In this document: positions 4,137 to 37,751 of the stretch, one piece after another
How the letters are laid out: every line of letters starts with the position of its first letter
Position numbering within the stretch: position 1 is the stretch's first letter
Source: Deltaproteobacteria bacterium
GTDB lineage: Bacteria > Desulfobacterota > Syntrophia > Syntrophales > Smithellaceae
Length of the DNA: 37,751 nucleotides
Direction: 5' to 3'
Assembly (NCBI GenBank): GCA_025361065.1
Contig: JANYAY010000008.1
Span: forward strand, 1-37,751
Translations under genes and position numbers: made by a program
The notes under the pieces: generated by a model
Told to the model about the DNA's origin: nothing
The model's input: the letters and a program-made list of their open reading frames with translations, nothing else
Database searches by the model: none

Positions 4137-4531
4137 CCAGGGAAAAGGTAATATAATTATCTTCCACTAATAATATTTTGTATAGTGCCGGATCAATTTC
4201 CCGGCACAACGGCAAGGGCAATATTTAATTATCAGAGTTTCTTCATATAATCAACCACCTCGCAGCATGCTGTCGAGACATGAAATGAAAGTCATTATAT
4301 CGCGAGCTCGCTCACGAGAATGAACGCTCGTCCCGCGTGAGCGGGATTCAATCTCAACAGACACGCTTTGTTTTCCAGCACAGACATGTTATATAAAAAA
4401 TGATATGAAATTGTAATCAGGGATGTGGTAAAAGCAATTTACTTTTGCAATGTTCCGAGTCATATTCGCGACCATTTATGGATGCTCCGCTATTGGCAGC
4501 GGTAATTTTCGGTGGTCTTTGGGAGGTAGCC
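4137..4531. other. intergenic region with repeat A1
   Basis: This divergent gap holds repeat A1 (4249-4348) and otherwise A+T-rich sequence. The upstream part of the open frame entering the YhcH gene (4445-4531) is not taken as coding, since the ribosome binding site supports the 4532 start. Confidence 0.5.
4249..4348 (+). repeat. dispersed palindromic repeat A, copy 1
   Basis: A 100-base element that starts AATCAACCACCTCGCAGCA and ends CCGCGTGAGCGGGATT. The reverse complement of 7522-7622 is clearly homologous over the full length, and 9482-9540 is a shorter copy lacking the middle. It contains several short hairpins, for example CCCGC-GTGA-GCGGG. Confidence 0.85.
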
Positions 4532-5011
4532 ATGATTGTTGATGAAATTCGTAATTGGAAAATTCATTTTAAAAATCCTGTTTGGGAATTAGTTTTTGCC
4601 GAGATCAAATCCTTGAATAATCGCACACCGGATAGGGAAAAGAAAATTCAAAATGATGATATTATTCTCAAGGTTTTCAGCTACGAAACTGTTGCCCCGA
4701 CAGACCCGGCTGCTGAATTGGAAACGCATAGAACATATATTGACATCCACACTACTATTACCGGAAGTGAAAGAATTGACTGGTATCCGGCTTCATTGCT
4801 TACAGCCAAAGGTTTTTATAATGAAGAGGAAGATGCGATATATTATGAAAGGGAAGAACCGTCGATCGGGGCCGCTGTTAAAATGTATCCGGGAATATTT
4901 GCCGCTTTTTGGCCCGATGATGCTCATATGCCGCGAATAATGACCGGGGGGAAAGCCGAACTGATCAAAAAAGCTGTCTTCAAGATAAAACTTGATCTCA
5001 TTACATTTTAA
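4532..5011 (+). CDS. YhcH/YjgK/YiaL (DUF386) family protein
   Basis: 159 residues from the ATG at 4532, selected for the GGGAGGT ribosome binding site four bases upstream; the frame is open 29 codons further but without support. Family features are ETHRTYIDIHTTITG near the middle with conserved acidic/His metal-binding residues, DWYPA, and the C-terminal FAAFWPDDAHMPRI segment with conserved His and KAVFKIKL. This cupin-like beta-barrel family includes YiaL and the sialic-acid anomerase YhcH. The substrate here cannot be told: no sugar-acid genes are adjacent. Repeat B1 begins immediately after its stop. Confidence 0.85.
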   Translation: MIVDEIRNWKIHFKNPVWELVFAEIKSLNNRTPDREKKIQNDDIILKVFSYETVAPTDPAAELETHRTYIDIHTTITGSERIDWYPASLLTAKGFYNEEEDAIYYEREEPSIGAAVKMYPGIFAAFWPDDAHMPRIMTGGKAELIKKAVFKIKLDLITF

Positions 5012-5012
5012 A

Positions 5013-5109
5013 TCAATGACACTCGCTGAAAACAAGCGAAGTGCAGTTTGAAGCATTAGTGGAATTGATCCCGAAAGCGAAGTTCAGCAGGCGGAGCTAT
5101 TCGGGATCC
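5013..5109 (+). repeat. dispersed repeat B, copy 1
   Basis: Starts TCAATGACACTCGCTGAAAAC and ends TATTCGGGATC; strongly similar over about 100 bases to 8568-8670. Two hairpins are visible: CACTCGCT with AGCGAAGTG, and GATCCCGAA with TTCGGGATC. It starts one base after the YhcH stop codon. Confidence 0.85.
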
Positions 5110-7360: not shown

Positions 7361-7387
7361 TTGACAGTATTGTAATAAATATATAAC
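7361..7387 (+). promoter_or_regulatory. predicted promoter of thiN operon
   Basis: A perfect -35 TTGACA (7361-7366) and a -10 TATAAC (7382-7387) with a 15-base spacer, directly ahead of TPP riboswitch 2. The spacer is short, but the position is right and matches the arrangement at riboswitch 1. Confidence 0.6.
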
Positions 7388-7468
7388 CACAGGGGTGCCT
7401 GATGGGGCTGAGATTATACCCTTTGAACCTGACCCGGGTAATGCCGGCGTAGGGATTGGCAGTTGTGA
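7385..7468 (+). promoter_or_regulatory. TPP riboswitch (THI element) 2
   Basis: Contains P2 GGGGT/TACCC, a short P3 hairpin GCC-TGAT-GGGGC, invariant GCTGAGA, CCCTTTGAACCTGA, and the P4/P5 block GGGTAATGCCGGCGTAGGGA. The core from TACCC onward is nearly identical to riboswitch 1. It is followed ten bases later by an intrinsic terminator, so it should switch off thiN-thiD-thiC when TPP is abundant. Confidence 0.96.
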
Positions 7469-7477
7469 AAATAATTT

Positions 7478-7519
7478 AAGCCATATCCTTAGGAGGGTCA
7501 AAAGGGTGTGGCTTTTTTA
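7478..7519 (+). terminator. intrinsic terminator of TPP riboswitch 2
   Basis: AAGCCATATCCTT (7478-7490) pairs with AAGGGTGTGGCTT (7500-7512) and is followed by a run of T. It is the likely expression platform of the riboswitch. The loop holds an AGGAGG run that is not followed by a start codon. Confidence 0.85.
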
Positions 7520-7521
7520 TT

Positions 7522-7622
7522 TAATCCCGCTCACGCGGGACGAGAGTTAATTCTCCGCAGTGAGCTTGCGATATAATGACGTTCATTTCATACCTCGACA
7601 GCTTGCTGCGAGGACGTTGATT
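7522..7622 (-). repeat. dispersed palindromic repeat A, copy 2
   Basis: 101 bases, homologous to repeat A1 (4249-4348) in inverted orientation. It begins AATCCCGCTCACGCGGGACG on the plus strand and ends GCTGCGAGGACGTTGATT. It lies between the riboswitch 2 terminator and thiN, so it is transcribed within the operon leader. Confidence 0.85.
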
Positions 7623-7700: not shown

Positions 7701-7809
7701 CCGTCATGCCGGTGAAAACCGGCATCCAGAACATATTGGAAATACTGGATTTCCCCGTATCGATCACGGGGCAGGCTCTTCGTCGCGCTTCGCTTGCACG
7801 GAATGACGA
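7701..7809. repeat. palindromic repeat (type D) in thiN leader
   Basis: Flanks read CGTCATGCC and GGAATGACG. Inside are the hairpins GCCGGT-GAAA-ACCGGC and CCCCGT-ATCGATC-ACGGGG and the stretch TCGTCGCGCTTCGCTTGCACG. This is the architecture of the common GTCATtCCCG-type intergenic repeats of bacterial genomes. No protein is encoded. Confidence 0.7.
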
Positions 7810-8548: not shown

Positions 8549-8567
8549 AAAATGAAACCTGTTAAAG

Positions 8568-8670
8568 TCAATGACACTCGCTGAAAACGAGCGGAGTGAA
8601 GTTTGAAGCGCTAGTGGAATTGATCCCGAAAGCGAAGCCCTGCGGCTGCAGGGCGAAGCTATTCGGGATC
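8568..8670 (+). repeat. dispersed repeat B, copy 2, at the thiD start
   Basis: Homologous to 5013-5109. It carries the hairpins CACTCGCT/AGCGGAGTG and GATCCCGAA/TTCGGGATC, plus an inner CCCTGCGGCTGCAGGG. It lies between a vestigial ATGAAACCTGTTAAAGT (8552-8568) and the real thiD start ATGAAACCAGTCAAAGT (8688-8704), so its insertion appears to have split and duplicated the gene start. Confidence 0.88.
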
Positions 8671-8687: not shown

Positions 8688-9542
8688 ATGAAACCAGTCA
8701 AAGTATTGTGCATCGGTGGATCGGATTCCAGTGGCGGCGCCGGTATTCAGGCCGATTTGAAGGCCGTGACCGCCTGCGGTTGCTACGGACTGAGTGTGAT
8801 TACAGCGGTAACAGCGCAGAATACTTTTGGCGTACAGGATATATTGGAGATTGCTCCGGAATTTGTCGCCAGACAAATTGACGTCGTATTGAATGACATT
8901 GGGGCGGATGCAGTAAAAACCGGCATGTTGCTGACGGCGGGTATAGTCCTTGCTGTTGCCGGGAAGATCAGGGAACATAATATTGAAAAATTAGTTGTCG
9001 ATCCGGTAATGCTGGCGAAAGGCGGAAGGAATCTAATGCTGGCGGCAGCCAGGGAGTCATTGGTGAAAAAACTGCTTCCTCTGGCTCTGGTTGTTACTCC
9101 CAATATTCCCGAAGCGGAGAAATTAGCCGGGATGGAAATCAAGTCTGTTGCCGCGATGAAGAAGGCAGCGGTTATTATCCACAAGTTTGGTATGCAAAGT
9201 GTTTTGATTAAGGGCGGCCATCTTCAGAGCAACAAGCAAAAAGAAGTTATTGATGTTCTTTTTAATGGGAAAAATTATCAGGAATATTCTTCGTCGCGCA
9301 TAGATCTTGCCGACTCTCATGGTACTGGTTGTACCTATGCTTCAGCTCTGGCGGCGGGACTTGCCTTGGGGAAAGACGTTGCAACTGCGGCCGGGTTGGC
9401 GAAAAAGCTGGTTACTTCAGCTATCATTAATTCTGTAGACTTGGGGGCGGGACACGGCTCAGTCGATGCTTTGGCCGGAAAAATCAACCACCTCGCAGCA
9501 AGCTGCGGAGAATTGACGCTCGTCACGCGTGAGCGGGATTGA
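8688..9542 (+). CDS. thiD: hydroxymethylpyrimidine (phosphate) kinase ThiD
   Basis: Phosphorylates HMP and HMP-P to HMP-PP, the pyrimidine donor for ThiE. Ribokinase-fold signatures are all present: IGGSDSSGGAGIQADLKA at residues 8-25, AVTAQNTFGV, the VVDPVMLAKGG loop, VTPNIPEAEKL, VLIKGGH and the DSHGTGCTYASALAAGLALG anion hole with catalytic Asp region near residue 205. The start is set by GAGG ten bases upstream and by the normal MKPVKVLCIGG opening. Two oddities: MKPVKV is encoded a second time at 8552, before repeat B2, and the last 20 residues (from about residue 265) are encoded by repeat A3. The 284-residue length is a little above the usual 260-270. It is in the thiN-thiD-thiC riboswitch 2 operon. 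Confidence 0.95.
   Translation: MKPVKVLCIGGSDSSGGAGIQADLKAVTACGCYGLSVITAVTAQNTFGVQDILEIAPEFVARQIDVVLNDIGADAVKTGMLLTAGIVLAVAGKIREHNIEKLVVDPVMLAKGGRNLMLAAARESLVKKLLPLALVVTPNIPEAEKLAGMEIKSVAAMKKAAVIIHKFGMQSVLIKGGHLQSNKQKEVIDVLFNGKNYQEYSSSRIDLADSHGTGCTYASALAAGLALGKDVATAAGLAKKLVTSAIINSVDLGAGHGSVDALAGKINHLAASCGELTLVTRERD
9482..9540 (+). repeat. dispersed repeat A, copy 3, inside thiD 3' end
   Basis: 59 bases matching the two ends of repeats A1 and A2 but lacking about 42 internal bases; the junction lies at the repeated GCAAGCT. It begins AATCAACCACCTCGCAGCAAG and ends GTGAGCGGGATT, whose final T starts the thiD stop codon TGA. The repeat is therefore translated as the ThiD C-terminal tail. Confidence 0.88.
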
Positions 9543-9628
9543 AAAAGTAAGCAAAGCTGGTATTACGAAGTACAAAGATTGGAAAATAATTAAACGTCTT
9601 GATAAAGGCGAAGTATTTGGAGGGTAAA

Positions 9629-13807: not shown

Positions 13808-13884
13808 CAAACCACAAGAATGCATGAGGATGCATTTGCGGTAAATAATTTAAAAAGCAATTTAACAAAAGGAGGCTTTACCTG

Positions 13885-14082
13885 ATGACAGCAACAGCAA
13901 AGAAAGTCGTGAAGAAGGCTGCAAAACCGGCAGCAAAGAAAGCAGTAGCAAAGAAAGTCGTGAAGAAAGCCGTAGCAAAAAAAGCTGTGGCCAAGAAAGT
14001 AGTAGCCAAGAAAGTAGCAGCAAAGAAAGTTGTGAAGAAGGCTGCTCCCAAATCAGTCAAGAAGGCAGCAACAAAAAAATAA
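13885..14082 (+). CDS. histone H1-like Lys/Ala-rich DNA-binding protein
   Basis: 65 residues, of which 26 are lysine and nearly all the rest alanine or valine, arranged as AKKVV, AKKAV and VKKAA units with a few prolines. This is the composition of the C-terminal tails of eukaryotic H1 and of bacterial H1-like proteins such as Hc1 and AlgP-type tails. It should bind DNA non-specifically and compact the nucleoid. No globular domain is present. The start is firm: GGAGG lies nine bases upstream, and a near-consensus promoter sits 77 bases before the ATG. The gene contains internal direct repeats (GCAAAGAAAGT at 13897, 13948 and 14020), so length may vary among strains. A hairpin follows the stop directly. 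Confidence 0.85.
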   Translation: MTATAKKVVKKAAKPAAKKAVAKKVVKKAVAKKAVAKKVVAKKVAAKKVVKKAAPKSVKKAATKK

Positions 14083-37614: not shown

Positions 37615-37751
37615 GGTAGTGTCAAAAGTTTTATGAAAACTAGCACGGATAAATGAAAAGAGAGATAGGATTTGGTTCGGGAGTAAAAGCAAGAGCCATT
37701 TGACATAGCGATAATGTTTGTCGGAAGATTTCAGGCAAACTTAGGCCATAA
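37615..37751 (-). mobile_element. IS element end, right contig copy (partial)
   Basis: Perfect reverse complement of 1-135 over positions 37615-37749. The outer boundary begins GGTAGTGTCAAAAG, the presumed terminal inverted repeat. As at the left end, only the last part of the element is inside the window. Having the same end at both contig termini, pointing outwards, is what assemblers leave when the IS is present in several copies. Confidence 0.7.

Follow-up and report, generated by a model that had tools for sequence, protein, structure and literature searches.

A mobile palindromic repeat in the last bases of thiD rewrites the predicted C-terminus of the enzyme

Comparison of the thiD gene of a probable Smithellaceae bacterium with its relatives indicates that a mobile palindromic repeat, here called repeat A, is inserted in the last bases of the gene and has rewritten the C-terminus of the encoded enzyme. 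The window, that is the whole stretch of 37,751 nt analysed here, is one contig (C11) of a source assembly of 3.95 Mb in 186 contigs. With a probability of roughly 0.8, we consider that repeat A would be a non-autonomous mobile palindromic element that inserts between A and YTR (A^YTR), and that the protein tails arising from it would be by-products of insertion. The gene encodes a phosphomethylpyrimidine kinase with a Phos_pyr_kin domain (PF08543, E 7.6e-89, residues 13-260). The features of the locus, several of them defined against a relative of the same genus (G003), are as follows:

8688..9542, + strand: thiD (phosphomethylpyrimidine kinase), 284 aa as now read; from the open reading frame, Pfam and a 30-row alignment with relatives
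9482..9482, + strand: left target base A, host DNA; from the G003 empty site, with A at this position in 86% of 149 copies
9483..9538, + strand: inserted short-form repeat A, 56 nt (ATCAACC...GCGGGA); absent at the orthologous site of G003, and from the family alignment
9483..9539, + strand: codons 266-284, encoding the tail INHLAASCGELTLVTRERD; the last codon, GAT, borrows one host base
9492..9510, + strand: 5' hairpin of the repeat, CTCGCAGC-AA-GCTGCGGAG
9523..9538, + strand: 3' hairpin of the repeat; consensus TCCCGC-GTGA-GCGGGA, with one stem base changed here
9539..9543, + strand: right target bases TTGAA, host DNA; from the G003 empty site, matching the family flank TTAAA
9540..9542, + strand: present stop TGA, from host TTGA in the shifted frame
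9548..9550, + strand: ancestral stop TAA, now out of frame; aligned with TAA in G003, and the joined flanks encode LKK

The ThiD of G003 is 86% identical to that of the window and ends in LAGKLKK before its stop, encoded by GGAAAA TTGAAAAAGTAAACAAAG. At the insertion site its DNA runs from GGAAAA into TTGAAAAAGTAA uninterrupted, whereas the window reads GGAAAA, the 56 nt repeat and then TTGAAAAAGTAAGCAAAG, no base being duplicated or lost relative to G003. As 56 is not a multiple of three, the insertion shifts the frame and the TGA of the host TTGA becomes the stop, and the final LKK is exchanged for 19 residues. A preliminary description of this DNA had proposed that a dispersed palindromic repeat encodes an extra ThiD tail, and the empty site in G003 bears this out. 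It had placed the tail at residues 265-284; its origin in the repeat stands, while the exact span is I266-D284 (19 aa). Two further proposals have to be corrected, since TTGAA at 9539-9543, stop included, is host DNA in the alignment with G003 and not partly the final base of the repeat, and since a 56-nt insert cannot be the in-frame insertion that was envisaged.

In agreement, the tail is found in none of the 29 best-matching relatives, out of 52 with a match at E 0.001 or better. These 29 proteins are 52-85% identical, and three longer fused ones (L040, L042 and L059) were trimmed at the match end for the 30-row alignment. The alignment thus upholds the earlier expectation that the tail is extra, and no orthologue with the tail in the absence of repeat A DNA occurs among the 29. 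The ThiD of another relative, G001 (L038), bears a different extension of its own. That the tail is ancestral and was deleted in the relatives is vanishingly improbable, being opposed both by the absence of the tail from all 29 relatives compared and by the fact that the extra sequence is a dispersed repeat; we found no point that supports it. In the AlphaFold2 model 167 of the 284 residues have a pLDDT of 90 or more, while residues 265-284 and 252-259 fall below 50. The low pLDDT of the tail, which no aligned relative shares, is weak evidence that it may be disordered.

Three copies of repeat A are present in the window. The thiD copy was called at 9482-9543 (+), a span that includes host bases at both ends, and the other two overlap no predicted gene:

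4249..4352, + strand: repeat A, long form
7519..7622, - strand: repeat A, long form, after the second TPP riboswitch

The window also holds two TPP riboswitches (403-501 and 7381-7472, both above the Rfam gathering score) and a second dispersed repeat (5007-5082 and 8562-8637, 91% identical over 76 nt), one copy of which lies shortly before the start of thiD. At 13881-14042 a coding repeat rich in lysine and alanine codons, histone-H1-like by eye, recurs in seven overlapping register copies. The contig ends carry a perfect 135-bp inverted repeat (1-135 and 37615-37749), which may stem from the assembly at a repeat boundary.

In the genome as a whole the copy number of repeat A is well over 100, far beyond chance. 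A 91-nt query around the thiD copy matched 39 other places (E 7.1e-23 to 2.3e-12) and 6 shorter pieces, at least 46 matches including itself with 40 of 156 candidates scored. A covariance model gave at least 200 matches, 150 of them itemised, which is a rough count given that 150 of 1417 first-look candidates were scored. We read 151 unique copies with their flanks (154 before duplicate removal); two had no recognised left end and two no recognised right end, so that each flank table holds 149 copies and 147 copies have both ends. By matched length 110 copies are long (97-106 nt), 34 short (56-64 nt) and 7 other, corresponding to about 96-98 nt and 56-57 nt as inserted. The short form is the long form minus the stretch between two similar hairpins, both CGCAGCAAGCTG-like, and the consensus ends are AATCAACCACCTCGC... 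and ...GCGGGATTAAA. The conserved stem is TCCCGC/GCGGGA, extended by one G-U pair in RNAalifold; the consensus folds contain the hairpins, with no base pair showing compensatory changes on both sides. The one long copy that was folded (7519-7622) is more stably folded than shuffled sequence on either strand (z -3.6 and -3.4), and the thiD copy, with its changed stem base, folds no better than shuffled (z -0.4 and -0.3). The loops and adjoining stem halves come in few block variants (e.g. GTGA, AGCA and TTAA; GCAGCAAGC and GCGAGCTCGC), which look as if they had been exchanged between copies. Two other readings of the repeat were set aside: that of an intrinsic terminator, as by eye no T run follows either stem, and that of an integron attC-like site, as the insert does not start with TT.

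The insertion point of repeat A is precise: the element enters between A and YTR, for the most part at A^TTAAA, and target bases are neither duplicated nor lost. The evidence is seven clean empty sites from two genera, each flanked by A to the left and YTR to the right, with zero duplication. When 17 copies of the own genome were searched by their joined flanks in four relatives (G001, G002, G003 and G008), 12 had aligned sister loci and 5 were unaligned. Four of the 12 were clean (L008, L077, L085 and L161, against one or another of these relatives), adding to the thiD site, and one was nearly clean (L154); the other seven (L106, L108, L066, L142, L174, L135 and L111) were not resolved to the base, one flank or the junction having diverged. 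The junctions of L085 and L161 can be placed only to within one base. The two clean sites of the second genus are L248 and L251 of G024, compared with G018, the conserved left flank of L248 being only 36 nt long. The flanks of the 149 copies tell the same rule, with A in 86% before the insert and, base by base after it, T in 95%, T in 83%, A in 81%, A in 88% and A in 81%; the 3' flank is TTAAA in 73 of the 149 and TTGAA in 11.

The absence of duplication bears on the kind of element. Size, copy number and mostly intergenic placement would suit a MITE of the DDE type, such as the Correia and ERIC elements, but the ends of repeat A are by eye not mutual inverted repeats and none of the seven clean empty sites shows the duplication of a target-duplicating MITE, while ERIC-type elements duplicate TA according to the available text of PMC2759123; we hold this reading to be very improbable.

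A fixed short target is part of the definition of IS200/IS605-type (Y1/HUH) elements. Repeat A has such a target, with no larger duplication, at the seven sites and in the 149 flanks, and the available part of PMC2817692 on the IS200/IS605 family fits this combination. Movement of repeat A by a RAYT or Y1 (HUH) transposase encoded in the same genomes would also draw on the five Y1_Tnp genes of the own genome and on a weak A-like stretch (17.9 bits) by L192. Against it, full repeat A occurs in 0 of the 45 Y1_Tnp loci examined (5 own and 40 from relatives, the latter part of the relatives' matches), and G034, a genome given as 99% complete that has 40 copies or more, yielded no Y1_Tnp match, so that the mobiliser there would be another enzyme or has been lost. 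An autonomous copy with the ends of repeat A is likewise absent from these 45 loci, which come from fragmented assemblies. Moreover three genes, L032, L034 and L196, which we take to be RAYT-like, have unrelated terminal inverted repeats of their own, and repeat A carries no GTAG tag. Taken together, a transposase of this kind from the same genomes seems to us doubtful as the mobiliser.

The stretch by L192 (1082-1149, in G008) lies some 50 nt beyond the 3' end of a gene that we likewise presume to be RAYT-like. G008 itself had no match to the repeat A model at E 0.001, and a second weak stretch, by L299, reached 6.1 bits; the L192 stretch may point towards a related mobiliser. When the long repeat was aligned locally to 11 Y1_Tnp loci, with 10 shuffles each, the score was 24 for L031 versus a shuffled maximum of 21, one point above the maximum for L185 and L032, and at or below it for the rest, which we judged to be no link. 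We also considered whether nearby pairs of copies form the ends of an autonomous element and rejected this, as the genes between them look housekeeping by eye (presumably phosphatidylserine decarboxylase-like and adenylate kinase-like, for example) and none looks transposase-like. As a separate observation, the IS200-like transposase gene L031 of the own genome (G000) and L187 of G018 are 93% identical over 378 nt while the ThiD proteins of the two genera are only 59% identical, which suggests horizontal transfer.

Repeat A is concentrated in one family of bacteria. A match at E 0.001 or better is found in 24 of 59 genomes, the own included, and best values of 1e-9 or better in 14 of 35 same-family genomes and in 0 of 24 outside, where the best is 2.3e-5. 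With 92 candidates scored per genome the counts are lower bounds: at least 97 here, 91 in G024, 64 in G018, 40 in G034, 24 in G032, 15 in G001 and 9 in G003, with 0 matches in G002 and G008. An exact 35-nt pattern, in a search that may leave out records near the window's own genome, gave 17 public-genome loci, in MAGs titled Smithellaceae, Syntrophaceae, uncultured delta proteobacteria or Deltaproteobacteria. The hosts of repeat A are probably Smithellaceae bacteria. L248 and L251 are present in G024 and absent in G018 within flanks 92-97% identical (88-99% when aligned over shorter stretches), a presence-absence pattern that suggests fairly recent movement.

Most of the 151 copies lie between genes: 75 are tandem intergenic, 36 divergent and 14 convergent, with 10 at locus edges. 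Nine touch a C-terminus, one a C-terminus and the next N-terminus, five an N-terminus, and a single one falls inside a gene, 30 nt away from a predicted start; for the N-terminal and internal copies the start may have been misplaced. The genes were called with a home-made codon-score finder, and a gene shortened by the repeat would score as a C-terminal case. Nine of the ten copies that touch a C-terminus do so on the same strand and one on the opposite strand (L081). The same-strand tails are these:

ThiD: repeat A at 9482-9543
L008: beta-ketoacyl synthase
L068: metallophosphatase / nucleotidyltransferase
L077: GTPase with KH domain
L085: HAD-like phosphatase
L103: glycerophosphodiester phosphodiesterase family
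L106: MerR family
L108: HAMP / GGDEF
L156: methyltransferase

Besides ThiD, eight more genes of this genome thus end in translated repeat A; the preliminary description had suggested that such genes be sought. We take L077 to be Era-like and the beta-ketoacyl synthase L008 to be FabF-like. The predicted tails are 6-19 residues long and use all three frames (e.g. INHLATSSRGMK, STTSQQDCEV and NQPPRSKL). Joining the flanks gives an old tail of 1-3 aa in eight of the nine genes and of 28 aa in L103, a gene that the repeat may have truncated. In the second genus 20 stretches with 23 copies were examined for each of two genomes, versus the at least 91 and 64 copies counted. G024 (genus g5) has two same-strand C-terminal cases (L248 and L251) and one N-terminal case, and G018 has 0 same-strand cases and one opposite-strand C-terminal case of low score. 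Close to the position where the own genome has repeat A at its Era-like gene, G003 (L219) and G001 (L212) each show, 3' of this gene, an insert of roughly 80 nt that is unrelated to repeat A and bears inverted repeats.

A device like the Rickettsia palindromic elements (RPEs), in which the added peptide itself is the selected product, would agree with the predicted translation of the repeat at gene ends (nine in this genome, two in G024), and with L248, where the 57 nt preserve the reading frame and leave the old end LKKE and its stop in place. Nevertheless all three frames are used, the tails of long copies stop within about 20-40 nt of the element, the 56-nt thiD copy shifts the frame, and the number of tails is roughly what target sites at gene ends would yield (see below), so that we find selection for the peptide highly improbable.

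The target itself offers an account of the tails as by-products. TTAA and TTGA hold stop codons in one or both directions, and therefore same-strand insertions extend proteins. On the opposite strand 10 of 24 genes, whose stops lie from 110 nt inside the element end to 40 nt beyond it, end exactly at the first host base. As a control we used ATTAA sites away from copies in 566 kb of stretches around copies, not the whole genome; 1070 of these 1609 sites lie deep in predicted genes and 539 elsewhere. Same-strand tails occur at 9 of 147 copies (6.1%; 8 of 147 without L103), and 29 of the 539 sites (5.4%) lie at most 15 nt from a gene end. Stricter or looser motifs give 7/197 (3.6%) for ATTAAA, 17/343 (5.0%) for ATTRAA and 27/493 (5.5%) for AYTRAA. 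Thus, with deep-gene sites set aside, same-strand tails are about as frequent as random target hits, and in this sense they look like tolerated by-products. Abutting opposite-strand stops are found at 10 of 147 copies (6.8%) versus 22 of 539 ATTAA sites (4.1%), the expectation being 5/197 (2.5%) for ATTAAA, 5/343 (1.5%) for ATTRAA and 8/493 (1.6%) for AYTRAA; this excess over random hits under the stricter motifs could reflect an extra preference or weaker removal. Within genes we found one internal copy and six at predicted 5' ends among the 151, versus 1070 of 1609 ATTAA sites, a rarity that points to purging.

The observed insertion, empty sites, target, lack of duplication and readable tails in nine genes would be explained as follows. 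Repeat A would be a short non-autonomous mobile palindromic element, transposed in trans by some enzyme, that enters A^YTR and leaves the target unduplicated; this rule would suit a Y1/HUH single-strand transposase. As a stop codon, TAA or TGA, is frequently part of the target, a copy that lands on the coding strand just upstream of a stop would let translation enter the element and continue to an internal stop or to a host stop in a new frame, the protein typically losing 1-3 residues and gaining 6-19. Insertions deep in genes would be mostly removed by selection, leaving the intergenic, stop-abutting and C-terminal copies, and the tails themselves may be near-neutral. We also put forward, tentatively, a more far-reaching version: a recently active orphan family, for which stops are common landing sites, might be adding new C-terminal peptides in three frames to core proteins (ThiD and those presumed Era-like and FabF-like), with a trans mobiliser of a transposase kind not yet tied to such repeats.

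Translated palindromic repeats at gene ends are already known from REP, ERIC and QMITE elements, and comparison with these systems helps to place repeat A. RPEs are short dispersed palindromes translated within unrelated genes (available text of PMC10969869 and PMC2229807), and repeat A shares with them that it is a short dispersed palindrome read as part of unrelated genes. They are described as in-frame fusions at variable positions along ORFs (available part of PMC3733652), whereas the tails of repeat A are C-terminal and in three frames, its thiD copy is frameshifting and its lineage is another; insertion in frame inside a coding sequence was seen only in L248 of G024. The likeness to RPEs drawn in the preliminary description thus survives for the translated repeat and fails for in-frame placement within genes, and repeat A would best be described as resembling RPEs, from which it differs in these described features. 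With the GTAG and CGTC REPs, as presented by Di Nocera et al. (2013, PMC3733652), it has in common a high-copy short palindrome, and REPs too are reported there at coding ends or supplying stop codons. However, neither end of the palindrome in repeat A shows GTAG or a similar tetranucleotide, and none of the 45 Y1_Tnp loci is a RAYT gene flanked by the same repeat. The CGTC REPs carry their tag by an 8-9 bp stem starting with AT pairs and a tail that is mostly CCA, in the same available text; repeat A has an internal CGTC, but its stem lacks AT pairs at the first and second positions and no CCA tail follows, so that it departs from this published description. A different element of the window, at 7701-7729 (ccgtcatgccggtgaaaaccggcatccag), does resemble a CGTC-tagged REP with CCA tail as described there. 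In the ERIC / RU-1 group, one ERIC copy seems to have deprived the amidase gene ECA3499 of its stop and given it a C-terminal tail (Delihas 2007, PMC2759123); unlike ERIC elements, which duplicate TA when they insert, repeat A duplicates nothing at seven sites. The QMITE1/2 copies of Coxiella burnetii overlap gene 3' ends, with a presumed 33-aa C-terminal tail on EnhC from QMITE2, and in the available text (PMC5896051) QMITE2 copies carry copy-unique direct repeats, in contrast to the fixed target and lack of duplication of repeat A.

We did not find the repeat A family in print, in a literature search that covered few subscription papers and, for RPEs, reviews, and searches for Smithella with REP, or IS200 IS605 with TTTAA, returned no papers. 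By analogy with the systems above, repeat A appears to be a new, REP/MITE-like family within a known broad kind, the short mobile palindromic repeats. To these it adds a family from bacteria that are probably Smithellaceae, for which the target is defined, target duplication is absent and none of the 45 Y1_Tnp loci links a transposase to the repeat, as well as a base-resolved example of a short mobile repeat becoming (predicted) protein. Stop codons overlap with its target motif, so that C-terminal tails appear roughly as often as target sites alone would predict, and claims that repeat-encoded peptides are functional can be tested against this simple null model.
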